Assembly: GCA_001972305.1 (NCBI GenBank)
Contig: BDDD01001602.1
Coordinates: forward strand, 62,001 to 126,000
Direction of reading: 5' to 3'
From: Cephalotus follicularis
Lineage: Eukaryota > Streptophyta > Magnoliopsida > Oxalidales > Cephalotaceae
DNA length: 64,000 nt
In this document: in pieces, positions 1,977-59,542 of the stretch
Layout of the letters: every line of letters begins with the position of its first letter
How positions within the stretch are numbered: position 1 is the first letter of the stretch
The notes under the pieces: generated by a model
What the model saw: only the letters and a program-made list of their open reading frames with translations
What the model was told of the DNA's origin: nothing
Database searches by the model: none
Made by a program: the position numbers and the translations under genes

Positions 1977-2260
1977 TAACGTCTAACATACTCTTTCATT
2001 GTCTCTGTCTCTCTTTCCTTGTTCACTTACTCAACCTTAAAAGAAAACCCTTTGTCCTATTCATTTCCTCGTCTATCTCTGAAAAAATACTCATGAGAGC
2101 TCTTCTGTCCTGGTCCATGTCTACCTTGCATAAGAATTCACCATTAGTCATAAGCACATACATCCATATCATAAGCATTGACAAATGAAACACATAAGTC
2201 ATGCACGTTCATTCAGTCATCTATAATAATTTATCAGACTTAACTAGTAGGCCAACGTGT
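1977..2260 (-). mobile_element. untranslated leader remnant of a minus-strand gypsy element
   Basis: This segment lies directly downstream, on the minus strand, of the PBS at 2261-2274. It should therefore be the start of the internal region of the element whose 5' LTR is 2276-4544. I see no gag reading frame before the abutting LTR end at 1976. The rest of the element is missing or outside the window. Confidence 0.5.
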
Positions 2261-2274
2261 CTCTTTGATACCAA
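2261..2274 (-). other. primer-binding site (tRNA-Met type)
   Basis: On the minus strand the site reads TTGGTATCAAAGAG, one base inside the LTR end. It matches the usual plant PBS complementary to the 3' end of initiator tRNA-Met (TGGTATCARAG). It fixes the orientation of the LTR at 2276-4544 as a 5' LTR read on the minus strand. Confidence 0.8.
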
Positions 2275-2950
2275 CTGTGACATCCCGAACCCATAGGGGG
2301 TCCCGAGATATCACCCAAACCTATTCAGTCAGTTCAGTCGGGTACTAGTTAGTCTATTAAGTATAGCAAAAAACCATGAAAACTTAAAACTTTAATACAT
2401 GTGCGAAATCCATTCCATTAATACAATTCAATAATAATACATGTCATTTCCATGATAATCTTTACAATCATTACAAATACATAACATCTTATACAATTCT
2501 TTCTGTTCAACTTATACAAGAAAACTGTAAAAACTAAAAACCCATAGCATCCATGTATCCAGGCTCCATGCATCTACTTTGTCAAATATCTCATCATCCA
2601 TGTCCACTACCACTAGCCCCCGATCCATAAATACCTGAACACATATAGATACCCCATTCCGATGGATGAGTCGGCCAAAAAGCCTCGCAGAAACTAAACC
2701 CCTATGCTGACGATATGAGCAAATATCACAGAAATCAATGCATATCATGGTAATATGCATGTACAATTGTGGTTAACGAGTCTATATATATATAGTCGTC
2801 CCATACCAGTATATATATATATATAGACCATTAACCTAATCATACACTCCAAACCATCTAGCTATCTAATAATTGTTTGGTTAACTTGAATATATGCACT
2901 GTCATATACCAGTATATATAAGATATTAACCAATAATCAATATCTGCAAC

Positions 2951-3456
2951 TCTAAACCCCCTTTTCAGAGAGGCACGCAACTCTAGGTTTGGACATCTAG
3001 TTGCCTACCGTAGATGGCAAGTCCAACTGGAACTAATCGCCTATGTGTAGCCCATAGGTACTCGACTAGTTACAGATTCACTCAAACAATCACATCAATC
3101 AGACAATCACTTTCAATAGCTCACATAAGTCTCAAGTCCCACGTTTCAGAGAGGCACTCGGCTTTGGGACGAGAACACTAACCTCCCAAAAGTGGCACAT
3201 GTCTCTAAGGTTAGCTACGTGGCTTCATTACACTTACGTATAAACCCCCTTTTCAGATAGGAACTCGGCTCTGGGTCTATACTAGTCTAAATCCCCCTTT
3301 TCAAGAGGCCCGCGGCTCTGGGATCAGACAAAAATCATCTATCATTCCTTTGATAGTAGTTATCATGGTCTCAAGTCCCCCTTTGCAGATAGGCACTCAG
3401 CTCTAGGATGAGTACATCTAACCTTCTTTTCAGAATGACATTCCGCTCTAGGTTAG
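2951..3456 (-). other. tandem array of stem-loops with covarying stems and a conserved loop
   Basis: Seven related stem-loops are visible: TCTAAACC/GGTTTGGA (2951/2986); TCTC..GTCCC/GGGACGAGA (3130/3166); CTAACCT/AGGTTAG (3178/3208); GTATA.ACCC/GGGT.TATAC (3238/3273); GTCT..ATCCC/GGGAT.AGAC (3285/3320); CTCA..TCC/GGATGAG (3370/3406); CTAACCT/AGGTTAG (3418/3450). Most enclose a loop built on TTTTCAGAGAGGCACTCGG. Two unrelated helices also occur: AACTA..CCTATG/CATAGG..TAGTT (3031-3071) and CTATCA/TGATAG (3339-3356). The stems differ in sequence from copy to copy while remaining complementary. Confidence 0.8.
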
Positions 3457-3639
3457 TCACGAAGCTCGACTAGACACTACTATAAATACTACCCTTTACC
3501 CATTTCATACTATCTTTACAAATCTAGCAAGAAACCCAGTTATCACTATACACGGGCCTAGGAAAGGTCCCAGTAGAAAACCCTTTGAAAAACATGCTTT
3601 GAAAATCAGTTGCAGAAAAACTGACAGACAAAGCAGTGA

Positions 3640-3860
3640 CACCTTGATCTTAAGCGGTGACGCTTAGCGCTTAAGCATCGTCAGTCAAGTTTCAAGTGTT
3701 GGAGCTTTGAGAGTGTGTTAAAACAATTTTAGAGAAAAGTTCTAAGCGTCCAAGCTTAAGGACTAAACGTCGGCACTTAGACTAAGCGTTTTCCAGAGTG
3801 GCGAAGCGTTTTCAGTTTGAAATCAATTACTTTTGAAAACCCGATCTAAGCGGCGACGCT
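3640..3860 (-). repeat. dispersed TAAGCG-TCGACGCTTA dyads
   Basis: Several degenerate copies of a dyad related to AAGCGTCGACGCTT occur here, for example around 3650-3675, 3765-3790 and 3845-3862. Most have one or two substitutions in the TCGAC core. They sit between the promoter-proximal leader and the hairpin array of this LTR, the same relative place as GTCGAC arrays in the other LTR families. Confidence 0.6.
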
Positions 3861-4344
3861 TAATCTCGCAGAACTTAGGGTTCTACTTCAAAAATATTTG
3901 CAAATTATATTCTTTTCTTTAAATCATTTCAATCCAAATTCAATTCTAGTTGTATTAGTCAATTCTTCAATCATTTTAATCCATCCTATGAATTTCTAGG
4001 TCATAAACCCCCAATTTCCTCTTAAACCCTAACTCTCTATCAATTCATTATCAATCACATTCAATCAATTTCGATCCATACGAACGGTTCATACATGTGC
4101 ATATATGTGTATATCATAGCATATTTAGGTTGATAAGGTTTCTCCCAAAGATTGGAGCTTGTTCTTGATCTCTAAAGTCAGAAAACTAAGAAAGAACTCA
4201 AGTTTTTTACTTGTGGGACTCCAATCTTTTGCCAACCAAGTCCTCAATCAATATAAAAACCTTCCCCATCAATTCTCCGTGTCAAATAGTCAATTTGGGT
4301 AAGTTTTGAACAAGTTTTGGTAAAGAGAAAATAGGGAAACGGGC

Positions 4345-4345
<1 letters not shown>

Positions 4346-4389
<44 letters not shown>
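4346..4389. repeat. (GA)n microsatellite
   Basis: An almost pure GA run just downstream, on the minus strand, of the TATA-like box at 4426-4434. CT-rich leaders follow the promoter in several other LTRs of the window. Confidence 0.9.
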
Positions 4390-4425
4390 AGAAGAATAAT
4401 GAAATAAAATGTGATTCGGTTCTCT

Positions 4426-4434
4426 CTTTATAGG
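4426..4434 (-). promoter_or_regulatory. TATA-like box of the 2276-4544 LTR
   Basis: The minus strand reads CCTATAAAG here, about 110 bp into the LTR and just upstream of the pyrimidine/GA-rich leader. Position and context fit an LTR core promoter. Activity is not shown by sequence alone. Confidence 0.55.
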
Positions 4435-4544
4435 TTTCTCACTAACTCTCCACTCGTGCACTATCAATATTCAATTTATCTATATACCATGACAAATGAT
4501 GTAATAAATGCTAAAGCAATAAGGGAATATTTCGGGGCGTTACA

Positions 4545-5540
4545 ATTTTTGAACCAAAAAACACTTTTTCCCTTCATACTAGTCGACTACCCATCAGTTG
4601 TCTATAGCTACAATTTAAAACAAAACTTTTAATGGTCAATAGCTGATGACTTAGTCGATATCTAGTCGACTATTAGTCGGCTAATCTAAAAATAAAAGAG
4701 GTGTGTGTTTTAACAAATTCTGACATAAACTTCTAGCTGATAGAAATGCGAAGACAACCTTTCCGAGGCTAGACAAACATTCCATATACCTTTAAAAGCC
4801 TAGATAACATCTTTTTAAGCACATTTTAACACATTTATAGCATTGATCAGGACATCACACACATTTATAACAATGTTCAATTACTCTCACACATATCACA
4901 TTTTGTTAATTATCGAAATACAAATGATGAAAAGTAAGTAAGGTCAATAATCTTCCCCTTTTGATGAATTACAAAATGTACAAGATTAAACCATAATCAT
5001 AATTTTCTCCCCTTTTTGTCATTCAACAAAAAGTGAAAACAATGTAAACACTAATGCAATATTAATAGATATGACAAAATCATCAAAATAAACCATGTAT
5101 ATCTCAATTAAGAACATAACTAATCTTCCCATTTTGTCATTTAACAATGTTGCTCCCCCTCATCAAAAAGCTTATAAGATACACTAAAACATAAACCTCA
5201 AGATATGGAGTTATGAAAAACTCCCCCTCAATATATGCAAATAATTAGACCATGTAAAGGATATACTTTCCTTCAAAACATGAATCATATTCAAATGATT
5301 TTAAGCACATTAAGATCATCCCAATAGAAATTTAAAGTTAGATTCATGCAAATTATATATCAATAAGAGCACATATTTATGATGTGTAACTCAAATAAAA
5401 TCATCATAACAAATTATAAAATATTGCATCATTTCAAATCTCATAATTGTTTATAAAGCAAATCATACTTACTATCTAAGCACCCCCCTTAACATGAGCA
5501 TACTCTAATGATGAATTACCACACTTGATGATATAGGTAC
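4545..5540 (-). mobile_element. copia (SIRE-like) fragment C0: start of 3' LTR plus 3' non-coding internal region
   Basis: This stretch is a diverged copy of 27535-28720 in element C1. Bases 4545-4948 match the upstream part of the C1 LTR, including TAGTCGACTA-type words at 4580-4680. From 4949 onward it matches the non-coding region upstream of the LTR, with purine tracts seen on the plus strand as CTCCCCTTTTTGTC. There is no coding sequence. It is cut on the left by the LTR at 4544 and on the right by the truncated 5' LTR of G1 near 5540. Confidence 0.7.
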
Positions 5541-5835
5541 CATGGACGTCGATGTCTTTCGCTTTAGAATGCAGCATCCTCGACGTCTTTCAAAGACATC
5601 GACATCTTTGCCTTGAGATGTCTTCTCCCCAGGAAAGACATCGATGCTGAACATCAATGCGCACTCCCAGGATACTTTTATTTAATCACGTCGACATTTT
5701 TGTTCAAAGACATCGACGTCCTTCGGCAAAGACATCGATGTCTTTCAAAGACGTCGATGTCCTTCTACCGTTTTAAAGGAATGCCCTGATACGCATCGAA
5801 GTCTTTGGCCAAGGACATCGACGCCTTTCGGGCTG
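5541..5835. repeat. array of AAAGACGTCGACGTCTTT-like dyads
   Basis: Around ten irregularly spaced copies of a word related to the perfect dyad AAAGACGTCGACGTCTTT occur, many with CpG-to-TpG or CpA changes (for example AAAGACATCGATGTC). The same word recurs in the G1 3' LTR, in S2 and in the G3 LTR. Confidence 0.8.
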
Positions 5836-6430
5836 AATGGAACTTTTAGTTGTTTTAAAGCTTTGTTTCAACTATTTTTCACATTGACGCTTGACCGGAG
5901 CCTCACTTGAGGTATTCAAGCGTTTGAAACACAGTTTTTCAAGGTTTTCAAAGATTGAATAGATAGATTGATAGAGTGACAGCTTGAGCCATAGGCGACG
6001 ACCCAGTGACTTTCTTTGACTGGATAGATGTTCCTCCCTATCTTGTTATTTGATTATCACCGTCTACTGGCTTTTGAATGATTGATTGATTGATTGGGTC
6101 ATAAGTGTTGTGAGTCTAAGTTTGGAACATTGGACGCAATTCCCATTCCTTCGATTCGACATCACCACTTATTGACCCTGTTTTGATATTGCACTAACAG
6201 ATTGATTAATTGTATTGTATGGATCCTGTATAGAGACCTTATGATTTATGTCAGCATGTTAGGTTGTTGACTATGTCCACCTATTATGTCGATCGTTTCA
6301 TTTATCGATATTGTATTGACCAACTGACGAGCAGTACCAATTGATTATCGATTGATGCTCCCTTGAGGGACGTAGCTCCCTAACGGTTTTAGTAGCTCCC
6401 TCAGTTGTAGCTCATCGAGACTGTATTGAC

Positions 6431-6810: not shown

Positions 6811-6860
6811 ATGGGGTTTCTGCTTAGCCAGTGTGGCTAACCCCATCCTTCGGGGTGGGG
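6811..6860 (+). other. two mutually exclusive helices, one with a TTCG loop
   Basis: Helix A pairs ATGGGGTT (6811-6818) with AACCCCAT (6839-6846), enclosing TTAGCC(AGTGT)GGCTAA (6824-6840). Helix B pairs CCCCATCC (6841-6848) with GGGTGGGG (6853-6860) across a TTCG loop closed by C-G. Both need CCCCAT at 6841-6846, so only one can form fully. The whole block is also present in S2 (minus strand, about 30775-30825) and, with one mismatch in helix B, in the G1 3' LTR near 19946-19996. Confidence 0.7.
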
Positions 6861-11621: not shown

Positions 11622-13457
11622 TGTAACACCCCCGGACGGCGGGAGTCGTCACAGGGTCATATCATAACATAACTCAACATAACAAATCATAAGTTTGCTT
11701 TATTAGCCAAAAACAGCCGAAAACATGGTAGTCTTATCAAAACATTAAAACTTAACATTTAACATATTAAGTAGTTGCAGAAAATTCAAAACATAAATCA
11801 GTTCCAATTTAAAACATAAAATATAAAAATTCATGTTTTCGACCACTAAACATAACAAAAGGATCACTCTCCTAAGGATCCAACATAAAGAGTGGTCATC
11901 ACTCAATCACATTTTCCCCAGCTGCTCCAGAAAACCTGCCGCATGGAAAACAAAAATGCGGCTGAGCAAACCTCAGTACGGATAAGGGAAATAAAACAGT
12001 AAGCGGTAATTTAAAAACGTTAATATTTCAATAATAACGTAACTGAAATCGTAAACAGTTAAGATAGTTTAATCATATTCCAATGACAGTTGCATATTTT
12101 TCGAAACAATTACGGAACAATTTAAAATGCTATAAATCGTAGTTCGTAAAACATACTGAGCCATATTCATATCACATATCATAAATTTTGGCAAGGGAGG
12201 CGCTAATTCCACATGCCCACTAGAATTGAAGTGTACGGCACTACACAAGTCAATTCTCACATGCATATGTCCGATCACACCTCGGACCACATATCTGAAT
12301 TCACCTCTGATCACATAAGCTAGAATCGATTCATTCGCCTCTATCACATAGCGGATCCACAAATCCACCTCATGGGATTCGTTCATACACTCAGAGACGC
12401 CGTAGTCTAATCATACCGCTACAGAAGTGTCACGTCCCCGTGCCAGGCCCACGACGTGCCTATGGATACGCCCCATAGGTGGGTACAATACTCAGTATTT
12501 AATTTAAAATAATTGATTTATCAAAATCAACTTAAATCACATAAATATGTTTTCACACAACATATTCAAAAACTGGTCACAACAATATATAACATATCAT
12601 ATCATAACATATCGTACCATAACATATCGTATAGATAAAGTCGGTATCAATTAAAATGTCAAACCAACTTAAATTCAAAACGTATCAAGATCATGTAACA
12701 TCGTTGATTTCATAAACGAAGATGTTTATCAAAACAATTTCAGTTTGAAGGTCAGATAGCCAAGGAACAGAAAATCCGTACCTTATGCGATTGCAAAGTA
12801 CTTACGAATAGACAATTTTAAACGGAATCCACTTGAAACTCAACAATCTATAAAAACATTCAAAATCATATGTATAAGAGTTTGAAACACATTAGAAGCA
12901 TTAAACAAACTCATAAAAGTGTTTGGAAAAGATTCGGATCGATTCGGGGGTCAAATGAATCAAAACGGTTGAAAATAGCACATTCCAGGGCATGACAGTC
13001 GACTAGAACAGGGGTCCAGTCGACTGGAGAGGCTTGGCAGTCGACTGGATCATATGAACAGTCGACTACTCAACCAAAAATGCAGGTAGTCGAATGTGTT
13101 CTTCAATCCAGTCGACTACACAATCATTCCAGTCGACTGTCCACTCAGGCAGCCGACTGTTCTGGGCAACAGAATAGTTGGAAATCCGACGATTTGCTAC
13201 TGAAAATGGTTCAAATGATTTCTACAATAAACTAGAGACATATGGGTATAAACATATGATTATATATGACTTGTAGGTGACTTTCAAACACAAATTTGAC
13301 AAAGAAACAACTTGATGGTGATTTATCTTGCAAAAAGGAAGCAAGAAGACATTGCATGAACATGTCTAGATTCTGTGTTTTATCAAATACAGATGTTATA
13401 AACTCAGTTTGTGACATATATAGGTGCATAAAACGTGCAGATAACATTACTAACACA
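11622..13457 (-). mobile_element. E2 3' LTR, lacking its upstream part
   Basis: Bases 11622-11820 and 13300-13457 have direct counterparts in the other E2 LTR (14502-14700 and 14700-14853); 11820-13300 is absent there. It holds CAGTCGACTGG words (12995-13170) and hairpins: GCCGCAT/ATGCGGC (11938/11956), GTCCGA/TCGGAC (12269/12282) with outer ATAT/ATAT, and AC.AATCC/GGATT.GT (12359/12375). At 13458 it joins gag directly, so the LTR start and PPT are deleted. Confidence 0.8.
12995..13170. repeat. CAGTCGACTGG dyad array (E2 LTR)
   Basis: About eight copies of CAGTCGACTG or one-base variants occur at irregular spacing (around 15-35 bp). The word equals that of the R LTR and the S4 solo LTR and differs from the GACGTC-flanked form of G1. 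Confidence 0.85.
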
Positions 13458-16244: not shown

Positions 16245-17394
16245 TCAATTTCTCACTCTCATTCTCTCATTCTTTCATTTTTCTCCCTCTCTCTATCCTT
16301 CTCCCCCTCTCTCTCTTCCTGGCAGCCTCCCTCCATCTCCATAGCAGCCGAATTGCATCTCCTTCAATGAGGATACCGATTGCAAGTGTGGGTTGCCGAT
16401 TGAGTGACATAGCAGCCGATTCTTGAGTGTTTATGGCCATTGATCGATCGTTAGCTCAACTTTTGAAGCTTCGTTAAAGGTAGGACTTCCCTACTTGTAT
16501 TGCCTATTGCTTAATTGCATGATTGATTGAATTGTATGATTAATTGAATGATTGTCTTGTATAGAATTGAAAAACTAGGGTTTTCATTGATATCCTCGAT
16601 CTAACTGATCTAGAAGGATTAAATTGAAATTAGAAGGTTGTAACAAATTTTACTAACCTTAAATGATTGGTTTTAACCCTTAATTTTCAAAGAATGGCTT
16701 TAAATTGGATTTTGACTTGAGATTGGCCACTTTTTCTGCACAAAAATCGACATTGCCCAGCAAAGACATCAACCCCAACCCATGGACGTCAATGTCTTTC
16801 GCTTTAGAATGCAGTATCCTTGATTCTCCAGCAAAGACATTGATGTCTTACAAAGACATCAACGTCTTTGCCTTGGGATGTCTTCTCCCCAGGAAAGACA
16901 TCGATGTTGAACATCAATATGCACTCCCTGGCTACTTTTATTGAATCGCGTCGATGTCTTTTGTGATGACCCGTCCCTCAGGATAGCCACCTAGAACGAA
17001 TCTCCCGGCAGGAAGGAGGAATTTTCCATCTCCTCTAAGCCAAAACAACGCCACAACACATGGCAGGGAAGAAACACATGGCAGAGAAGGGACAAAGAAG
17101 GAAGAATGGCAAAGCTATAAATAACCTTTACACAACCCTTTCAAAAAAACTCACCGTTTAACTAAAGGGAACACATCAACACTGCCCAAACGCACCGTTC
17201 CACTAAAGGAACATAACAGCCATTGCCCAAACGCACCGTTCCAATAAAGGAACGTGCCAGGGGAGGGAGCCAGGGCAGAGAACGCAACACTACGTCTTGC
17301 CAGGGGTCCCGAACAGGGGATGCCAACATCACACAACACAACACATCAAACACAAGCCAGGCCTGCACCTCCATCCTAAGACATGCCTTCCCCG

Positions 17395-18533: not shown

Positions 18534-20357
18534 CCAACTCTCTCTCACTTCTCTCTCTCAAAGTCGAACTCCACTAACCAAGAAGGCATTGCCAGCCCAC
18601 TTACCAACTCCCATCTTATCATCATAACCTTGGGAAAATACAAAGCTTCTCCAAGAAGCTAACCATATATCATATAATAACCCAAACTAATCATATCCAC
18701 AAGTTTAAATAACTTACCACAATTCACACTTAAGTCCTTTCCATGTGCCAAACAAGGCCTTAATTATAATCCTCTAAAAACAGGTACGGGGTATTACAAC
18801 TTTGTTCAAAGACATCGACGTCCTTCGACCAGATCTCTATACAAATAGAGAAAGACATCAATGTCTTTCAAAGATGTCGATGTCCTTCTACCATTTTAAA
18901 GGAATGCCCTGATACGTATCGATATCTTTGGCCAAGGACATCGACGCCTTTCGGGCTGAATGGAACTTTTAACTGTTTTAAAGCTTTGTTTCAACTCTTT
19001 TTCACATTGCCGCTTGACCAGAGCCTCACCTGAGGTATTCAAGCGTTTGAAACATAGTTTTCCATGGTTTTCAAAGATTTAATAGATAGATTGATAGACT
19101 GACAGCTTCAGCCATAGGTGATGACCCAGTGACTTTCTTTGACTGGATAGATGTTCCTTCCTATCTCGTTATTTGATTGTCACCGTCTACTGGCTTTTGA
19201 TTGATTGATTGGGTCATAAGTATTGTGAGTCTAAGTTCGGAACGTTGGACGCATTTCCCATTCCTTCGATTAGACATCACCAGTTATTGACCCTGTTTTG
19301 ATATTGCACTGACAGATTGATTGATTGTATTGTATGGATCCTATAGAGCGACCTTATGATTCGTGCCAGCATGTTAGGTTGTTGACTCTTTCCACCTATT
19401 CTGTCGATCGTTTCATTTATCGATAATGTATTGACCTGCTGATGAGCAGTACCGATTGATTGTCGATTGATGCTCCCTTGAGGGCCGTAGCTCCCTAACG
19501 GTTTTAGTAGCTCCCTAACGGTTTCAATGGCTCCCTCGGTTGTACCTCATCGAGACTGTATTGACCCAGCCATAGGCTGGAAGATCTACGCATTCCAGAC
19601 CTGATCAGTCTGAGATAGTAGATAGATCGATCCCACCCTTTTTGAAGGACTACCTTCGGTGGGATCAATCACTGCTAACTGATTGACACTGTATTGACAC
19701 CAGTCGCATGCTCTATAGGATATCGTTTGATTGATTGGGTGTTTTTACACCACCATTGAGTGTCTGCTATTGATTGGTTGCTATAGATCCTATCCGTATG
19801 TTTTGTTATGGGCCAGGACATATGGATAGTCAGATCTCCAACTGTATTCATGCATTTGCCATGTCATGCATTGATATTGTACACAGCACATAGATATTGC
19901 AGAGACTGCCACCGATATTACACATTGTACATGCATACATGCTGCATGGGGTTTCTGCTTAGCCAGTGTGGCTAACCCCATCCTTCGGAGTGGGGCTGTG
20001 TTGTACTTTTATGTGCGGCATAGGTGGGGCAGCAGGTAGTAGCAGACAGAAGGACTGAAGACTCGTTTGTATTGCACGGCTGCTTGGGTACCGTTGAGCT
20101 GGTGGTGAGATTTTGTAGTGAAAGGATTGAAATGTATTGTATTGAAATGACTACTATCGCACTATAAAAGATTGGTTTTGTAAAGCACTGCTATCGTATT
20201 GTATTGCATCGTATGGATAGAATATTGTATTGTATCTTCCGAACATTGTAAAGTTTTAAGTTTTTCTGCATTTTTATATTGCTAGTCCTGACCATTGTAG
20301 TGTATATTGGATTTAGCGTAATGCCACGTGTCCGTTCTGCGGACGCGGGGTGTTACA

Positions 20358-23029: not shown

Positions 23030-23480
23030 CCAGCCGACTGTCCATGGAGGACAGCCGACTGCCCGAGGCTACCAGTCGACTGTTCAGTGAGAACAACCAA
23101 CTGCTCATGGGAAACAACTGGCTGTGCAAAAGAGCCAGTTGACTGTTCATGCTTTGTGATGAAGGATACCCCCTGCTGTTTGAGTAGCCGACTGCCAAGG
23201 GAAGGCAGCCGACTGTGGGTGGTACAGCAGACTGTCCACGTGTCACTCTACCCGGGTTTGCTGAGGTGGCATGCTGGGGCAAGTGACGAAGAAGGAACGT
23301 GTACTGTTCATGGACCAGTCGACTGCCAAGGAGGGCAGCTGACTGTTGAGGTAGGATAGCCAACTGCCAAGGAGGGCAGCCGACTGTTGTTTGAGGGCAG
23401 CTGACTGCCAATAGAGGACAACCGACTATTGAAGGAAAACAGCCGACTGTCAGTGAGAGACAGCCGACTGTTTGGGACTG
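23030..23480. repeat. CAGCCGACTG array, leader block of S3
   Basis: Roughly sixteen copies of CAGCCGACTG/CAGTCGACTG occur at irregular intervals, many followed by a short purine run such as GGAGG. They lie downstream of the putative leader donor at 22838. Confidence 0.85.
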
Positions 23481-25769: not shown

Positions 25770-25982
25770 TTTAAGTATTTATACTTTTGAACATTTTGGA
25801 AATGAACTGCAACGTATTGAACGATATGTTGTGATCAAGTAATTATTTTATAAATTGCTTGAGCTGGATTGTGTGTGCTGTGATTGCACTGTGCTATTGT
25901 TGTGAGTGTACTGTTATCGTGACTGTGACTATTGTTGGTACTTAGCCGCTGTGATAGTATCGCTTACTGTGTCCTGACTGTT

Positions 25983-26086
25983 GTTACTTAGCCGCCGCGC
26001 TAGTAACGTGGATGTTATTGGATTGATTGTGTTTGAGTGTTGCCGCTAGCGGGGTAATGTTGGTACTTAGCCGCCGTGCTAGTATC
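25983..26086 (+). other. hairpins with loop CGCCGY in S3
   Basis: GTTAC.TAGC (25983-25992) pairs with GCTAGTAAC (25999-26007) around CGCCGC, with one bulged T. GGTAC.TAGC (26062-26071) pairs with GCTAGTATC (26078-26086) around CGCCGT, where a T-A pair has become G-T. Between them lies the perfect palindrome CCGCTAGCGG (26043-26052). Weaker relatives occur near 25935 and 26110-26185. The loop and inner TAGC/GCTA are shared with the G3 LTR at 44462-44544. Confidence 0.7.
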
Positions 26087-26946
26087 GTGAGTGTTGCCGT
26101 TAGCAGGGTAGTGTTGGTACTTGCCATCGTGCTTGTATCGTATTGTGTTCCGAGTGTTGTTACTCGCCGTCGTGCCAGTAATGGAGACAATTGTTTGCAT
26201 TGAGTGTATTGCTTGTCTGATATGACATGCCTGATTGATATGAGTGTTGCCCTATGTGGCGTGACTGATTGGTTGACTGTTTGACAGTGTTGGACTGAGT
26301 TGTCCTTTGTGGCTTTATTGACTGGATCGAATTGATGGGTCCTTAGGGACCTGAGGCTTGGTTGATTGCTTGTGTGGTGACTGGTCCCTTGTGGACATCA
26401 CTGTTGTTTGTGTCGGTGTAGCCTGGTCGGGTTACACATGTGCTGTGATATGCATATATAGAGCATATATGTATATACTGTTGTACATACCGTACTGCAT
26501 CATTTTGCATTCATACATGACATGTATTATCTTTGACCCTGAATTACTCTTATACTTAGCTGAGTGAGGACAAAGGCTGGCCCCTTACAATTTCAGATTG
26601 ATTTCAGGTTGATGCAGTGGATTGTTACCGTTGAGCTCTGGGGAGCAAAGTGGAGTTTTATGTTATTTCTACTTTTGAGAAACACTGTTGGATCATTGTA
26701 ATAAATGAATTGATGTACTGATGAATATTGTTCACGCTCCATTTGAGGGCAGTTAACTTTGATGATGTTTACTGTTGTAGCATGTAGAATGGGATGCATG
26801 TTACGTTTTACTTTCGGCTTATATTTAAATGCTTCCGCAAGATGTTAATGGTATTGGAATGTTTTAAATTTATGGTAAATTGCATAAGCAGGATTTATAT
26901 GTTGATTGCCACCACTGTATATGTTGTTGTGAAATGGGGTGTGACA

Positions 26947-30399: not shown

Positions 30400-32632
30400 T
30401 GTAACACCCCGCGCCCGCAGGGCGGACACGTGACATTACTCTCAATCCAATATACAATACAATGGTCGGGACTAGCAATATAAAAATGCGGAAAACTTTA
30501 AAACTTTGCAAAACATATCATCTGCGGAAGATACAATACACTGATCCATACATACGATGCAATACAATACAAATCCTTTACAATACAAGTCTTTTACAGT
30601 ACATTATCAATCTTTCAATACAGTATTACAATGCAATACATTTCCATCCTTCACTACAATATCTTTATCAGCTTCGAGATACCCAAGAAGTCGTACGGTC
30701 AACGGGTCTTCAGTCCTTTTGTCCACTGCTACCTGCCGCCCAACCTATGCCGCACACAAAGGTACAACACAGCCCCACCCCGAAGGATGGGGTTAGCCAC
30801 ACTGGCTAAGCAGAAACCCCATGCAACATGTATGCATGTACAATGTGCAGTATCGGTGAAAATTTATACAATAACAATGTGCGGTGTACAATATCAATGC
30901 ATGACATGGCAAAAGTACATGTACAATTGGCGATCAGACTATCCGTATGACAGTGGCCCAACAGAGCATACGGATAGGATCTATAATAGTCAATCAATGG
31001 CAGACACTCAATGGTGGTGTATGAAACACTCAATCAATCAATCAATATCCTATAGAGCATGCGACCGGGTCAATACAATGTCAATCGGTTAGCGGTGATC
31101 AATCCCAGTCAGCAAGACAATACAATAAAAGAAACGGTCGACGGAATAGGTGGACAAGGTCAACCTAACATGCCGATGTAAACCACAAGGTCGCTCTATA
31201 GGATCCATACAATACAATCAATCATTCAATCGAGTCAATACAACATTAAGTAAAGTCAATAAGAAGTGGTGTCTAATGGAGAAATGGGAACGTGCGTCCA
31301 TCTTACCGACTTAGAGTCACAACAACACTCACGACTCAAACAATCGATCAATGTATCAATACAACATCGAAGCAAGGCCAATAAATGGTGGTGCCTAATG
31401 GAGGGATGGCAACGTGCGTCCATTTTACTGACTTAGACTCACAACAACACTCACAACTCAAGCAATCAATCAGTCAGTACAATCATTAAAACTGTTTTCA
31501 AACACTTGAACACCTCAAGTGAGGCTCTAATCAAGTGGCAATGTGAAAAGAAGTTGAAAACCATCTTTAAAACAGTTAAAAACTCCTTTCAGTACATTAG
31601 GCGTCGATGTCTTTGGTGAAAGACATCGACTCCTCTTTAAAACGATGGAAAGACGTTGATGTCTTTCAAAGACATCGATGTCTTTCCCTATTTGTATAGA
31701 GATCTGGCCGAAGACGTAGATGTCCTTAGAGAAAGGCGTCGAAGTCTTTCAATAAAAATAGCATGAGAATGCGCATCGATGTTCGGCATCGATGTCTTTC
31801 CAGGGGAGAGACATCTCGAGACAAAGACGTCGACGCCTTTGAAAGACGTCGATGTCTTTGCTGCAAAATCAAGGATAAAGCACTCAGATGAGAAAGACAT
31901 CGAGGTCTTTGGGCTAAGGGTCGATGTCTTTTCCGGGCAAAGTCGATTTTTATGCAGAAAAATGGCAAATCTCAAGTTAAAATCCAATTTAAAGCCATTC
32001 TTTGAAAACCAAAGTTTACAATCAATCATTTGAGGTTAGTAAGACTAGTTACAACCTTCCAAATTCAATTTCAATCCTTTAATCAACAATTTAGGTCAAG
32101 GGTTTGCTACAAACCCTAAGAACCCCAATTCACTCAATTCAATCATTCAATCAGTCATTCAATCAATACAATCAATCATTCAACGAATACAAGAGGCAGG
32201 CAATTCAAGTAAGAAGTCCTACCTATCACTGAAGCTTCAAAGTTGAGCTTCCAAACTCTCAATCGGCTGCTATGTCACTCAATCACCAATCCACTACTTA
32301 CAATCGTTGTCCTTGTCGATGGAGATGCAATCCGGGGCTGCAATGGTGGAAGATGGAGGCTGCTCAAGAAGAGAGAGAGAGAGAGGGAGAAGGATAGAGA
32401 GAGAAGAAGAATGAGAAATATGAGAGAAAGGAGAGAAAGAATTGACTTAAATAGTCGATTCGGTCAACTCTCCGAAACTCTGCCCAAAATCCCGACTATA
32501 CATGCATGTGATCAAAACAATATCAATAGGTATAAGAATACCTCAATTCAAAACAGTTCAGTACGGTCCAATATGGCACAATACTGTACGATGTATGCAT
32601 GAATAGTACAAAAGGGAATTCGGGTCGTCACA
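30400..32632 (-). mobile_element. S2: solo LTR of the G1 family in C1 gag
   Basis: On the minus strand it starts TGTGACGACCCG (32632) and ends GGGGTGTTACA (30400), 2,233 bp, with perfect TSDs CCAAG (30395-30399 and 32633-32637). It matches the G1 3' LTR along its length. A donor-like ATAG|GTAGGA is at 32221. The GACGTCGATGTC array (31590-31945) and the competing helices (about 30775-30825) are present. Its intact ends make it the best guide to the complete G1-family LTR. Confidence 0.9.
31590..31945. repeat. AAAGACGTCGACGTCTTT-like array (S2)
   Basis: About a dozen copies of a word around GACRTCGAYGTC, many with AAA/TTT flanks, at irregular spacing. This matches the arrays in both G1 LTRs. 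Confidence 0.8.
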
Positions 32633-43611: not shown

Positions 43612-44045
43612 TGGATAAACGTCGACGTCTACCTGAAGACGTCGATGTCTTCGTGTATGTATGAAAAAGACATCGATGTTTGAGTAAAAGCATCGACACC
43701 TTTTCTGGGTAATCATAGAACTGTATTGTTTACGGCAGATGGTGAATTAGCCACTTGGGATTACATGTTTGATTACGAATTGACGTTCTGGTTACATATC
43801 ATGATAACCAGTAGCTTTTCTTGCACCTTGAAAGGATGAGTTTTGCTTATATGGGGATTTAGGGACTGGATTCTTCCCTCCAGAATCCAGACTCGCGAAC
43901 TGATACCTCCTGGTATCATAAAGACATCGATGTCTTTGGAAATGCATCGACGTCTTTGGTCCAAAAACGCCTGGGAATAACTGTACATGGGATCGACGCC
44001 TTAGGGTAAAGACGTCGACGCCTTAGGGATAAACATCGACGCCTA
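43612..44045. repeat. GACGTCGACGTC array, leader block of G3 LTR
   Basis: About ten copies of the same word as in the upstream block (AAGACGTCGAYGTCTT and variants), grouped at 43615-43700 and 43920-44045. Confidence 0.8.
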
Positions 44046-44461
44046 TCCCCCTATTTGAAGGAATTTCGCTCGAATGGGACCCGCTAGATCCGAAATTATC
44101 CTAGGAATGATCCTAGATGCATTCTGAGCATATGTTTGCATTATTACTGTGAATTACATTATGGTTAATTTCTAAAAAGTATTAACCATCTTGGAAAACT
44201 TGCATGATTACGAAAATCATTATTGTACGAAAATGTATATTTGTCAACATATGATTTTATATATTTTCGAAATGATTGGGGAAGTATTTCCAAAGACGGA
44301 GAAATGTTTTAAAGGATTGGTTACACAATCAAATGTATTGTTTTAAGTTTTCTAACTTATCACAACTTGTGAACGGAGTAATATATTTTAAACAAATATA
44401 TTTGATCAAGTAATTATATTTTATTGCTTGACTTGTACTGTGCAATGCTTGTGCCTGTTGA

Positions 44462-44544
44462 TTATTAGCCGCCGTGCTAATAACCTGTTGATTAGTTAGC
44501 CACTGTGCTAGTAACCTGTTGTTGGTTTAGCCGCCGTGCTAAAC
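44462..44544 (+). other. three covarying hairpins with loop CGCCGT in the G3 LTR
   Basis: TTATTAGC/GCTAATAA (44462-44469/44476-44483) around CGCCGT. TTAGC with GCTAG (44496-44511) around CACTGT, extended by G-T pairs. GTTTAGC/GCTAAAC (44525-44531/44538-44544) around CGCCGT. The first and third stems are perfect and differ at positions changed on both arms. Confidence 0.75.
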
Positions 44545-44847: not shown

Positions 44848-44872
44848 TTAGCCGAGTGAGGACAAAGGCTAA
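44848..44872 (+). other. TTAGCC/GGCTAA hairpin with conserved loop
   Basis: TTAGCC (44848-44853) and GGCTAA (44867-44872) flank GAGTGAGGACAAA. The same stem and loop occur in S4 near 59181-59205, and a diverged copy in S3 near 26556. G1-type LTRs have the same stem with loop AGTGT (6824-6840). Confidence 0.7.
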
Positions 44873-45262
44873 CCCCTACTGTAACAGATTGATGGAGTGG
44901 ATTTGACACGGAGCATGCGCGGAGACTTAAAGAGAAGGCTGTGTAGTTTCTCTTATTTCTTGTACTTGGTTAATGAACATTGGTCATGTTATTTGGATTA
45001 TTGTAACAAAGGTTATTTTGTTATCCTGTACTGTTTATCACGCTCCGTTTTGGGCGATCAACTATGATGTTGGGTTTTATATAAACTTGTTGGGTATCAC
45101 GTAGTATGGGATGCGTGATACATGTTTTGATTAAGCTTATTTCATGTTATTGCTTCCGCTACTAAAGATTTTTGTTTATACGATTATCGCATGATCTGAA
45201 TTATTTTGTGTTGATTGCCTTACCGGTTTAATGTTGACCTCTTGGAAAAACGGGGTGTGACA

Positions 45263-47916: not shown

Positions 47917-48224
47917 AAATGTTACCTGTTCTATCATCCTCGGAGCGCTTCTACTTTTGATTTAAGGTTGTTATTTACGATGTTGTAATGTATTGTATTG
48001 AACGGTTCATACCTCGTTGATGTTGTATTTCCTTATGTAAGGATAATTGTTGGTTTACCCGCACGTAGTATGGGATGCGTGCGGACAGCTTGTATTTATA
48101 TTCCGGCTTAATAACTGCTTCCGCAAATTATTATGAATATTTGAATGAGATGCTGGAATATTATGTTAATTCTGATATCACCACATACGCTTGTCTATGT
48201 TTTGAATAACGGGGTGTGACAACA

Positions 48225-52890: not shown

Positions 52891-55280
52891 TGTAATAACC
52901 ACAATTTCCATTCATGTATTTTGTACCCAACAATGAATAAATATACCTTTTGAGATATTATGTTGGTACTTTCTTTAATGAATGAAGTTGGAATAGAATT
53001 TTAAATGGAAAATTAAAGAATTGATTTTTGTTATTAAACCGCCGACGTTTGGATACACACTGTCGATGCTTGAAGACCTGGCATGTGTCAAAACGCACAG
53101 TTGAAGACTGAGATTGGGCGCCAACCGTCGAACTTTAAACGCCCCGTATCAACACTTAAAGCCATCTAAGCGTCGACGCCCATGAGGTAACCGACGACGC
53201 TTTAGTCGTGTTCTGGCACAAAATAGGTGTCAGTTGGAGGAAATGGCAGAGCTGGACATGATGGGAACCAAGGCATGCATTCTTATACGTGTCGGTGATG
53301 CATAAGAGACCTTGTCAGCTGTTGATGGTGCCAGACTTAAGGGTCTTGCATGTTCCTTCCACCTGCAACCTGCAAAACACAGCAGAAAATGGTTAAGAGA
53401 AAGAACAAGAAAAGAGAGCATGCATGAAGGAGAGAGAGAGTTGGACACTAAAGGTTAAACCAACTGTGGGAATGAAAACCACGAAGCTGGACACTTATAT
53501 CAGCTGATGTTGAACAATTAGAGTGTTGAAAAAACACTGAAGGAAAGGAAAATTGCTGGACGATTGTGGAAGCTTGCGTTGAGGATTGAATGCCAAAGAG
53601 ACTTGGGAGCTTGTTCTTTTCCGGTAAGTTCCTAACCCAATTCGGAGTCATGATTGTAAGAATGAATGTTAGATTACTGAGTCTAAGTATAATACCTACT
53701 GTCAACTTGATTTAAGAGTTAACAAGTTGAATTGAAATGGATATGTTAAATGGCTCATAAGAGACGAAACTAGAAGCTTATAGTTAACAACAAACTTCTT
53801 GCCGATTCCTTGATGTTATCATGTTTTGATAACAGAATAAACTAACTAGTATTGATTAATAGACCTGTAACATGCAATTATGTAGATTAATTCTGCAATT
53901 TTGGGAGATTGAAAGAAGGTGAAGAACATTGGACATAAAGAGAAAGATCATTCCAATTGATCTTGGGATAGCATTTGAGGTAGGGGATTTTGTCATGTTT
54001 TTGAACATATAACATGTATAATATGTTGTGATGGATTGTACTTGATTGCATGTTGAATTGGTGCGAGTTTGGATTGAAATTGTACATCCCCAGTTTTGAA
54101 ACTGCTCCTGGAATTCGTATGAAACCCAGAAGCGTCGACGCTTACTCGTGACAGTCGACGCTTTGGTACAAAAATGGCATAATATGCTTCAGAATGTCGA
54201 CGCTTGGGTTGTCAGTATCGACGCGTAGTCGTTAACCGCCGACGCTTAACAAACAACTATCGACGCTTTGAAACAGTAGGTGTAGAAATTTGTAAATTGA
54301 TCAATTGAATTGTTTGTGGTTGCAAATATCCCTGATATATTATATTGTAACCATTATTACTGTTATTGGATAAAATTTCTACTGTCATGAATACATATTC
54401 AAGAATTTTACCAACCTAATGCTTAAAGCATAAACAATGATTTGTAACCGGTTTTCTAACAGAAAATCTTATTATCATACCAACTGTTATTTTCCTCTTG
54501 ATAGAGGCACTATTACTGTTTTGTTCTCCAATTGAGAACCACTATTGAATTGATATCGTTTTCCTCTAATGAGATGTATGATAAATGAATTGTTATATGT
54601 TTCTAAAGAAAACAACTTTGATATTGCATATTGCTGATATATGTAATATTATATTGGAGTGCTTGTATTGTTTGTGCTTGTTGCCAGTGGTCGAGTGACG
54701 GCTGTGGTCATCGACTGCGGTAGGGATCCTGGGTGCCAGGAGTTGGCCAGGAGATCTCCTAAACTAATATGCATTGCAGATCTTATTTGTTAAACTACCC
54801 GCCAACGCCGGTAGTAAATGTTATCTGTTCTATCATCCTCGGAGCGCAGGAGATAGTTAGGTAGTGCACAGTCGGAGCTAGGAGATAGCGGCATGTGACA
54901 CCCAATTGATGGATGAATTGATTGTACCCTTGTGCGGTATTCTTGCATATGGATTGCTTATGGACACTTGGCATGATTGCGTACCTATTGGAATATATAT
55001 ATATTGCTTCTACTTTTGATTTAAGGTTGTTATTTACGATGTTGTAATGTATTGTATTGAACGGTTCATACCTCGTTGATGTTGTATTTCCTTATGTAAG
55101 GATAATTGTTGGTTTACCCGCACGTAGTATGGGATGCGTGCGGAGGGCTTGTATTTATATTCCGGCTTAATAACTGCTTCCGCAAATTATTATGAATATT
55201 TGAATGAGATGCTGGAATATTATGTTAATTCTGATATCACCACATATGCTTGTCTATGTTTTGAATAACGGAGTGTGACA
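52891..55280 (+). mobile_element. G4 3' LTR
   Basis: 2,390 bp, same ends as the 5' LTR apart from GGAGTGTGACA. It retains ~160 bp (about 54847-55006) absent from the 5' LTR, with sequence also found in S4 near 58945-59105, so the 5' LTR has the deletion. Here CTATC.TCCT pairs with AGGAGATAG (54831/54847) around CGGAGCGC. Confidence 0.92.
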
Positions 55281-57054: not shown

Positions 57055-57215
57055 TAACCAAAATCAGCACCCAACAGCCAACTGTCACAGGGTAATAGTC
57101 GACTGGCTGGTTTATGGAAAAACAGCCGACTGTCAGAGGGTAACAATCGACTGGTTGGTTTATTTATGGACAGTCAACTGTCACAGGGTAACAGTCGGCT
57201 GGTCTGGCCCAGACA
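57055..57215. repeat. CAGTCGACTG array, upstream block of S4
   Basis: About six words (CAGCCGACTG, CAGTCAACTG, AGTCGACTGG, CAGTCGGCTGG), several followed by TCACAGGGTAA. Confidence 0.8.
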
Positions 57216-58094
57216 GGAGTCTGTGCATGGCGTGTGAAATAGGACAGTGGCAGCCTAAACGTGTCATGCAGGACAGATGCGTGCCGCCAACTGTCTAGCA
57301 TGCAAGAGAGGTATCTTGCATGAGCTCTGTTCCATCTGCAAAGCTGCAACCTGCAAAATCATGGAAGAAGAAAATAAGAGAAAGAAGGCATGCATGAGTG
57401 AGAGAGAAAAGAAAATACTGGGAAATGGACCAACGAATTCCTATACATTTAAACCTCTATATCAGCTATTGAGATATAGAATTAAGTGTTAGAAAACACT
57501 GAGAAGTGGAGGAACAAATTTGGACAGTTGTTGGAGGAATTGCTGGAGATTGCATATTGATGTTGGAGAGTTCAAGTGGAAATTAAAGCTTGATTTCTCC
57601 TGGTAAGTCAACAATCCGAGCTCATTACTGATATTAAGGTTGTTAATGATGTAAACATACTGATGTTAGCTATATATATCCACTGCCAATATGAACATGG
57701 AATGATAAAGCCTGGAGTTGAGGGTTGAATTAAGTAAATTGGCGAAGAAGAGTTTGAAGCTTAAGAAGATTACTATAAGCTACTGATTTGGATAATAGTT
57801 GTTATCATGGTTAGATAACAATATAACTTACTGGTTTTAATGTATATACTTGTAAACACGCAACAATATAGATTAATTGCTGGAAAATGGGAGATTCAAT
57901 TGGTGTGAAGAGCATTGGACATAAAGAGAGAAATAAATTCAAATTGATTTCGGGATAGCAATTGAGGTAGGGGTATTGACATGTTTTTGAAGATATAATA
58001 TGTAAGCATGTCTAGATAATTTCTCTGTGATTGCATGTTATTAATTTGTTTGAATTTGAAATTGAACATGCATACTCTTAACTGTTAAGCTGCT

Positions 58095-58235
58095 GTCTGA
58101 CGTTTTCTGGGAAAAAACAGTCGACTGTTGAGCCTAACAGTCAACTGCTCAATGAAAACAGACGACTGTTAAGGACAAACAGTCTACTGCTCAATATAAA
58201 CAGTCGGCCATTCTTATGAACAGTCGACTGTTAAG
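58095..58235. repeat. CAGTCGACTG array, leader block of S4
   Basis: Six words of the same form as the upstream block, spaced about 20-25 bp, joined by short AT-rich spacers. Confidence 0.85.
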
Positions 58236-58799
58236 AGATAACTTACTAATTTTAGTTACTGTTTAGGCTTAATTGAGATGTAATTACCCTGGCATCCATA
58301 TGGGATGAGTGTAACATTCAATCCTGGCCTTATGTAGTTACATTTTAGGAATTAAACAACTTATGCACTCCTTTTGTGAATTGTGTAAGAATGACTTTGG
58401 ATATGTTAATGAATCTTGTTGAATCCTTGAATTGCTACTATCTATGTTGTTAAGCTGCTATATTATACTACCGTTATAGGTATTATATATCTATTAAGTG
58501 TTCATAAACACTATTGTTCCACCACATTTCAAGGATTGAAAAACTAAGTGCTATAAGCACAAATATGGATTTTGACTATGGTTTTCAAAATGAAAACTTA
58601 CTGTCAAATGATTTGCTGATTTTCCTCCCATGAGAGGTACCACTACTGTATTGAATAGTCTTTCCTCCAAAAGAGAGGTGCGGTCACTAAATCGTTTATT
58701 GTTTCAAAGGAAAACTACTACTATATTGCACATTATAGATATATGTAATATTGCTATTGAATTGATTGAATTGTTTGTCTATGTTATTGTCGTTAGTCG

Positions 58800-58960: not shown

Positions 58961-59542
58961 TTTGGTGGTGCGCAGTTGGTGCTAGGAGTTAGCGACATAT
59001 GACACCCAAACCACTGTATTAATTGATTCTACCCTTGTGCGGTATTCTTGAATTGTATTGTCTATGGCCACTTGGCAGGACTGCTCATAGATATTGGAAT
59101 ACTTAAATATATATGTTATTTCAAAATAAACTGTCATACATGTTTACATTTATATATTCTTTCTCATGCTTTATTCCTACTTAGCCGAGTGAGGACAAAG
59201 GCTAACCCCCTACAATTTCAGATTAAGTGAAGGCGTTGGGGCAAGTGCTGCTGAAGCTTCTACGGAGAGCTTCTGTTTTGTTAAGGTTGTTATTTGCTAT
59301 GTCTTTGTATTGTAATAACTATCATACTCCGTTTGTTGTTTTTTTACATTTCCTATATGTAAAAGATAACTTATTGTGTATTGTGTAAGCACGTAGTATG
59401 GGCTGCGTGTGGATAATTATTATAATCGGACAATGAAATGCTTCTGCTTTTGTTTAATGAATTTTGATTAATGTTGAATATTGGATTATTTAACTGATAT
59501 CTCCATATATGTTGTTGTTGGAAAATGGGGTGTGACAAAAGC

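Follow-up and report, generated by a model that had tools for sequence, protein, structure and literature searches.

Tandem hairpins whose stem arms change together in the long terminal repeat of a Cephalotus follicularis retrotransposon

Elements with long terminal repeats (LTRs) make up much of many plant genomes, and the long LTRs of plants are commonly regarded as a promoter with filler; to our knowledge, the packaging and priming signals of these elements have been little studied. Among RNA motifs, hammerhead retrozymes occur in plant LTRs, and in the leaders of retroviruses stem-loops with constant loops and variable stems serve as packaging and dimerisation signals. Two further described systems concern the priming of reverse transcription. 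The A-rich loop of HIV-1, upstream of the primer binding site (PBS), is described as contacting the anticodon loop of the primer tRNA-Lys3, and stable primer switching as having been obtained by altering both the PBS and the A-rich loop (PMC13191261). For the Ty3 retrotransposon, the account in PMC11381356 describes a genomic RNA with a bipartite PBS for initiator tRNA-Met (tRNA-iMet) split between the RNA ends, and PAL6. According to PMC8794818, finally, template switching can both give rise to RNA hairpins and repair them.

The window analysed here is a whole stretch of 64,000 nucleotides from Cephalotus follicularis, in which one LTR contains a tandem array of hairpins and others contain a sister hairpin with the loop TAGTATGGGATG. 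As in retroviral leaders, a chain of short hairpins is found in a leader, and the sister hairpin combines a near-constant loop with a covarying stem; unlike in retroviral leaders, the array is located inside a long LTR, is tandemly amplified and lies upstream of the PBS. The loop TAGTATGGGATG is not self-complementary and is therefore not a palindromic kissing loop. It resembles the A-rich loop of HIV-1 in lying upstream of the PBS, and its UAUGGG may pair with CCCAUA in the anticodon loop of initiator tRNA-Met, the primer type of these elements. The loop ends 133-149 nt ahead of the LTR-end motif, in sense orientation, in all 11 LTRs examined (eight genomic, three from the window), with an iMet-type PBS seen behind it in 2 of the 11. 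On the other hand, the loop comprises 12 nt, its stem varies, and it stands ~140 nt before the LTR-end motif, while the HIV-1 A-rich loop is closer to the PBS. The array shares with hammerhead retrozymes that it is an RNA motif within a plant LTR, and differs from them in that Rfam covariance models, hammerhead and miRNA families included, give no gathering-level match in the window (the two best of the 14 sub-threshold matches in 2200-4600 lie on the TATA repeats). Like Ty3 as presented in PMC11381356, the element is an LTR retrotransposon with an initiator tRNA-Met primer and with candidate tRNA contacts at two sites; unlike here, the PBS of Ty3 is split between the RNA ends, and no such hairpin array is mentioned in the portion of that account on which we draw. 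Among the titles and abstract openings listed for the open-access literature there was no description of such an array or of these loops in LTRs, and the patterns used gave no relatives of the array in viral and prokaryote sequence collections.

The LTR holding the array spans 2,269 bp (2276-4544, minus strand), starting with TGTAACGCCCC at 4544 and ending with GGGATGTCACA at 2276. These TG...CA ends coincide with the borders of matches to other copies in the genome, in many of which similarity ends at or near 2276 and 4544, self-comparison of the window breaks at 4545, and two genomic copies are directly flanked by 5-bp target duplications (CTTAT for copy L004, GTTTT for copy L017). Two nucleotides past the LTR end, just inside the 5' LTR, there is a PBS-like site of the initiator tRNA-Met type, TGGTATCAAAGA (2262-2273, minus strand), with two mismatches to TGGTATCAGAGC. 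Near the sense start of the LTR we found a TATA box, TATAAA within CCTATAAAGAG (4427-4432, minus strand), and a CCTATAAATAGAG-like box is present in 14 of 30 genomic copies with at most 4 mismatches. Transcription probably starts ~30 nt past the TATA box, which would place the array downstream of it, roughly 0.9-1.5 kb into the minus-strand transcript, in a leader that extends over ~2.1 kb from the TATA box to the PBS. Because the LTR is on the minus strand, the transcript is the reverse complement of what had been folded in the earlier note on this DNA. The internal part of the element extends beyond the left window edge, and an LTR-like nested insertion (1-1980) seems by eye to begin ~300 bp inside it. 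The rest of the window is a nest of other LTR elements; a neighbouring one, with the sister hairpin in its LTRs, encodes retroviral-type protease, integrase zinc-binding and Tf2-1-like SH3 domains, and among the best 120 of its 7,999 protein matches those named by organism are all from plants and one is named as Ty3-gypsy subclass.

According to the earlier note, seven related hairpins lie in the array and their arms change together from copy to copy. A direct-repeat search gives six copies of a core in 2955-3454, all with pairing arms, namely the minus-strand hairpins H1 (2951-2993), H2 (3129-3176), H3 (3238-3282), H4 (3285-3329), H6 (3368-3415; H2-like and partly decayed in the window copy) and H7 (3418-3456), all of which entered the swap test described below. 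Thus the related hairpins are real, and six of them share a core; the seventh, H2b (3178-3214, minus strand), seen by folding, has only weak similarity to the core and no clear copy of it, while the stem of H7 resembles its stem. Further minus-strand hairpins were found by folding between H1 and H2 (3031-3071, seen also in genomic copies) and, a small one, between H4 and H6 (3339-3356). The array is adjoined by hairpin A2 (2879-2931), followed by A1 (2780-2828), which has a TATA-rich stem and the transcript loop CUGGUAUGGGACGAC and is a possible relative of the TAGTATGGGATG hairpin; A2 has an A1-like loop on another stem. A hairpin CATCC-ATCG-GAATGGGG (2652-2670), also on the minus strand, may correspond to the UUCG hairpin found in other LTRs.

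That the arms change together was confirmed by the swap test, in which all 720 assignments of 3' arms to 5' arms of the six units were scored in 16 settings (arms of 12, 14, 16 or 20 nt; Watson-Crick score or duplex energy; both strands). Pairing of each unit with its own arm beats at least 718 of the 719 other assignments in every setting, being uniquely best in 10 and equalled by one other in 6. With the seventh hairpin added, 2-7 of 5,040 assignments are equally good. The stretch 3368-3456 looks like a duplicate of 3129-3214, the two agreeing at 82 per cent over 57 nt and at 68 per cent over their full length, so five stem types were counted, for which the own assignment is the best of 120 in all settings; two compensated changes are kept and none is broken between the two stretches. 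Unconstrained divergence from one hairpin would let arms pair equally across copies, which the swap test contradicts. RNAalifold finds at least one kept both-sides change in 8 of 11 predicted pairs. The stems are alignable rather than unrelated, and clear two-sided changes are confined to about three columns: in plus-strand letters, A-T is replaced by T-A or by G-C beside the CCC/GGG base, and C-G by A-T toward the open end of the stem, with bulges also shifted.

The energy of folding gave no such signal, and global folding energy was rejected as support for the array because it does not differ from that of shuffles (z +0.67 for the plus and -0.17 for the minus strand); with the pair span limited to at most 55, the values are likewise not unusual (z -1.16 and -1.11). 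When each array hairpin is folded by itself on the plus strand, z lies between -1.4 and +0.8; two neighbours, at 3030 (z -2.2) and 3333 (z -3.4), fold better. Perfect arms of at least 7 bp number three against 0.8 expected, a number reached in 6 of 200 shuffles on the plus strand and in 9 of 200 on the minus strand, and one of the three pairs spans two neighbouring hairpins. A structure written by hand, with its inner helix mis-registered, was matched by 17 to 93 of 500 shuffles over five measures and scored equally well when slid by one register. The covariance model R1, built from the six units, matched five array units in the window, H7 not among them; its other match, at 19624, is at chance level (E 0.23).

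A search of the source genome (1.58 Gb) gave 42 matches; 40 of 886 candidates were scored and 30 loci were kept. All six units could be tested in 24 of the 30 copies, including two near-identical pairs (L001/L002 and L004/L005), and either score places the own pairing among the top 8 of 720 assignments in 20 of these 24. In most copies every array position retains its own stem. The core pattern with at most 3 mismatches has 147 matches in the genome versus none for the reversed control, and among ten further core-pattern loci (of 30 returned) eight have at least two units with the same stem and two have one unit. The core is no better conserved than the stems (divergence 0.122 versus 0.080).

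Changes within the family were counted in 27 copies, leaving out L025, L002 and L005. Among 1,984 cells, 265 are changed on one side and 20 on both, versus 15.7 both-sided changes expected from column frequencies, so that there is no excess of compensatory changes at orthologous positions and the family alignment alone would fail a covariation test. Eleven of the 20 both-sided cells are paired, and four of these represent a single change in the 3031-3071 hairpin, where both sides of one pair have changed: of 29 copies, 21 have G-C and 4 have A-T. Among 28 copies, a pair of H3 reads in the transcript as G-U (22 copies), A-U (4) or G-C (1), with one copy unpaired, and a pair of H4 as G-U (21) or A-U (5), with two unpaired. 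In H4 we also observed that L029, L031 and L040 have GGGACTAGAC as opposed to GGGATCAGAC in most copies, by which the inner loop shifts and the number of pairs is unchanged. A strand test comparing G-U with C-A pairs gave no clear signal for the transcript strand (13:8 against a background of 495:393), and the counts of 82:75 in family copies and 29:17 in the sister hairpin compare with ~1.5-2.9 to 1 predicted by base composition alone; a first count of 41:12 was rejected as a product of over-extended stems and base composition.

Counting stem substitutions in many aligned copies, proposed earlier as a check on the array, gave a divided answer. Changes seen in a single one of the 27 copies are spread evenly (0.68 per column in stems, 0.68 in the core and 0.65 in the spacer), as free decay of the stems would have it, but widely shared variants are rarer in stems: those common to at least 6 copies affect 8 of 154 stem columns and 34 of 271 others (core 22/151, spacer 12/120; p 0.017), and those in at least 3 copies 35 of 154 and 84 of 271 (core 47, spacer 37; p 0.073), a depletion that depends on the cut, in figures uncorrected for base composition or CpG. 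Stems poor in shared variants, with singletons spread evenly, are what one would expect of selection before insertion followed by neutral decay.

The covariation is thus between array positions and between LTR families, in both of which compensatory changes go beyond chance. Comparison of LTRs in the window revealed the TAGTATGGGATG-loop hairpin at three exact sites and, with one mismatch, at two more, with differing stems, all on the plus strand: GTATCACG-TAGTATGGGATG-CGTGATAC in another LTR (45094-45121), CCGCACG-TAGTATGGGATG-CGTGCGG in the 5' and 3' LTRs of one element (48059-48084 and 55118-55143), GTAGCATG-TAGAATGGGATG-CATGTTAC (26777-26804) and GCACG-TAGTATGGGCTG-CGTGT (59389-59410). In the genome, TAGTATGGGATG flanked by G/C at distance 10 on either side gives 1,783 matches (898 + 885) versus 12 (7 + 5) for the reversed pattern. 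Among the 100 matches listed there are 51 distinct arm pairs, and arms are Watson-Crick at 332 of 408 positions versus 240.7 +/- 10.8 with arms reassigned (maximum 278 in 10,000), a comparison that is overstated, since the arms of related copies are not independent. At each of stem positions 2, 3, 5, 6, 7 and 8, the Watson-Crick pairs are of two or three kinds. The main stem types, at least seven, differ from one another and are complementary: GTAGCGTG, CCGCACG, GCATCACG (last pair G-U), GAATCATG (one G-U), GTAACATA, CTCGCACG and, in the window, GTATCACG. A position-based search made without the loop returns the TAGTATGGGATG hairpin as best or second-best in 8 of the 11 LTRs (in one of them in a shifted register) and does not recover it in the other three; a GAGTGAGGACAAAGG motif precedes the hairpin in 8 of the 11. 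With its near-constant loop and compensated stems, the TAGTATGGGATG motif offers a ready covariation data set.

A second hairpin of U5, TTAGCC-GAGTGAGGACAAA-GGCTAA, is present on the plus strand at 44848-44872 and 59181-59205 and, with changes, at 26556-26580. Its loop has 8,290 genome matches versus 14 for the control, and its stem sequence is mostly constant among the 100 matches listed; a pattern search in one genome has thus yielded retroelement RNA motifs with 1,783 and 8,290 matches. A second tandem hairpin array, of three units with the core GCC-R-Y-Y-GTGC, lies at 44462-44544 (plus strand), and a related five-unit array at ~25937-26183. In swap tests of these arrays 16-152 of 40,320 assignments are equally good, as are 5 to 22 of 720 with six units and 8 to 102 of 5,040 with seven. 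The A1 loop, TGGTATGGGACG, has two mismatches to TAGTATGGGATG, a likeness for which ~5 chance matches are expected in the whole window on both strands; the A2 loop is similar to that of A1, and H2 and the second U5 motif have AGCCGAGTG in common. These likenesses are leads to a possible homology with the sister motifs, not proof of it.

The earlier note had offered two ideas, selection for an RNA structure in the long transcribed leader and a mutational process such as template switching. The former is the better supported, yet on the strand opposite to the one that was read. We consider it somewhat more probable than all else that the array is explained by RNA structure under selection in the R-U5 leader. 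The array would be a series of stem-loops that arose by tandem duplication, carried on the genomic RNA of an LTR retrotransposon whose transcription proceeds from the minus strand. While the elements are active, selection on the folded RNA would keep the stems, units being able to drift to sequences of their own provided both arms agree, and once inserted the copies would decay freely, the action of selection and the later decay both being supported. Probably the array is one piece of a structured U5 present in several forms across related LTR families, among them the TAGTATGGGATG hairpin with near-constant loop and varying stem and the TTAGCC-GAGTGAGGACAAA-GGCTAA hairpin. Its likely role would be that of cis-acting elements near the primer site, aiding recognition of the genomic RNA, priming by initiator tRNA-Met and copying, and the array would multiply one such recognition hairpin. 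Together, the array and the hairpins of other families point to an RNA shape that may be kept for copying or packaging.

The main rival, which we disfavour and regard as unlikely, is mutational upkeep, in which the replication machinery or reverse transcriptase, on switching templates, would copy one arm onto the other and so keep the stems complementary without selection. Creation and repair of hairpins by this route have been reported (PMC8794818), and reverse transcription of an RNA hairpin would offer the opportunity. Paired LTRs make it possible to separate selection, which acts before insertion, from mutation, which follows it. Between the LTRs of two other elements in the window, taken as their 5' and 3' LTRs, 54 of 482 mechanically listed helix pairs have changed, 53 of them on one side and one by a double break, and in none was the change compensated; this makes a mutational process in the genome less likely but does not bear on one acting during reverse transcription. 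More distant LTR copies show 7:1, 7:0, 3:3 and 1:4 compensated changes kept and broken in four comparisons, the first two of which have a common partner, so that the outcome is mixed. Further against template switching are the lack of excess compensation in the 27 family copies, the persistence of G-U pairs in most of the family and the depletion of widely shared, not private, variants in stems, which a mutation process does not predict. A different possibility is that the inverted repeats act in DNA, as cruciforms or as protein-binding sites within the LTR, the RNA being irrelevant. The G-U and C-A counts, which have no strand preference, would suit it, and so would the short palindromic repeats AAAGACATCGATGTCTTT and CAGTCGACTG in other LTRs of the window, the arms of AAAGACATCGATGTCTTT varying independently by eye. 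We nevertheless hold it to be quite improbable, since a protein site would preserve the stem sequence, yet that of the sister hairpin varies, its asymmetric loop is oriented alike to the LTR end in 11 of 11 LTRs, and the array lies downstream of the TATA box. A structured leader might also act in ribosome shunting or initiation, or be a source of small RNAs; the ~2.1 kb between TATA box and PBS leave room for such roles, but the window has no gathering-level match to Rfam, miRNA families included, and the hairpins of the array are short and of ordinary stability, with better-folding neighbours at 3030 and 3333, which makes a role in translation or silencing distinctly unlikely.

Returning to an RNA structure selected in the R-U5 leader, the sequence UAUGGG in the TAGTATGGGATG loop, a complement noticed after the fact, could pair with CCCAUA, which makes up six of the seven bases in the anticodon loop of initiator tRNA-Met; the gene of this tRNA is present in the genome at 72 of 72 nt in two copies, and the type of the PBS (iMet) agrees. 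The pairing is suggestive, with modest statistics: against the anticodon loop the main loop pairs at 6 of 6 nt, as do 13 of 500 shuffled loops, and 3 of 500 shuffles equal the A1 loop, while against the whole tRNA shuffles equal the main loop in 151 and A1 in 134 of 500. Four of eight loops found by position are changed inside UAUGGG, which may reflect decay. TATGGG is found in A1 of 12 and in A2 of 7 of the 27 copies; in the array-bearing LTR it occurs four times in sense and never in antisense orientation (2276-4544, minus strand). The array core shows a complementarity to the 5' end of the tRNA that we put forward as a suggestion only: GCCACUCUGA of the transcript fits tRNA nt 2-11 exactly in five H7 units, and the commonest letters of H1, H2, H3 and H6 fit it at 9 of 10, with equal shuffles (of 500) numbering 3 for H2, 15 for H1, 22 for H7, 48 for H3, 49 for H6 and 200 for H4. 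It is a tentative and rather doubtful model that the UAGUAUGGGAUG U5 hairpin would kiss the anticodon loop of initiator tRNA-Met, with A1 and A2 keeping this contact and the amplified hairpins adding contacts to the 5' strand of the tRNA. If the contact were true, a lentiviral priming device would extend to plant retrotransposons.

Other repeats with paired arms were observed in the window. On the plus strand at 683-835, in a different LTR-like stretch, three tandem hairpins of ~40 nt have partly compensated stems (CATGTAC/GTACATG, CACGCA/TGCGTG), two of the six assignments in the swap test of these three units being equally good. One LTR family (6824-6860 and 19959, plus strand; 30809, minus strand) carries TTAGCC-AGTGT-GGCTAA followed directly by CCCCATCC-UUCG-GGGTGGGG, a UUCG tetraloop hairpin in a well conserved LTR block, with one letter different at 19959. 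Palindromes of the AAAGACATCGATGTCTTT type and their variants cluster at 5540-5840, 16760-16970 and 43900-44050 (plus strand) and at 31600-31960 (minus strand); as their arms vary independently, not every palindromic LTR repeat covaries. Clusters of the CAGTCGACTG type are located at 12990-13140, 23300-23480, 57060-57220 and 58100-58240, of which the last three show strong minus-strand folding (z -7.2, -6.3 and -6.0).
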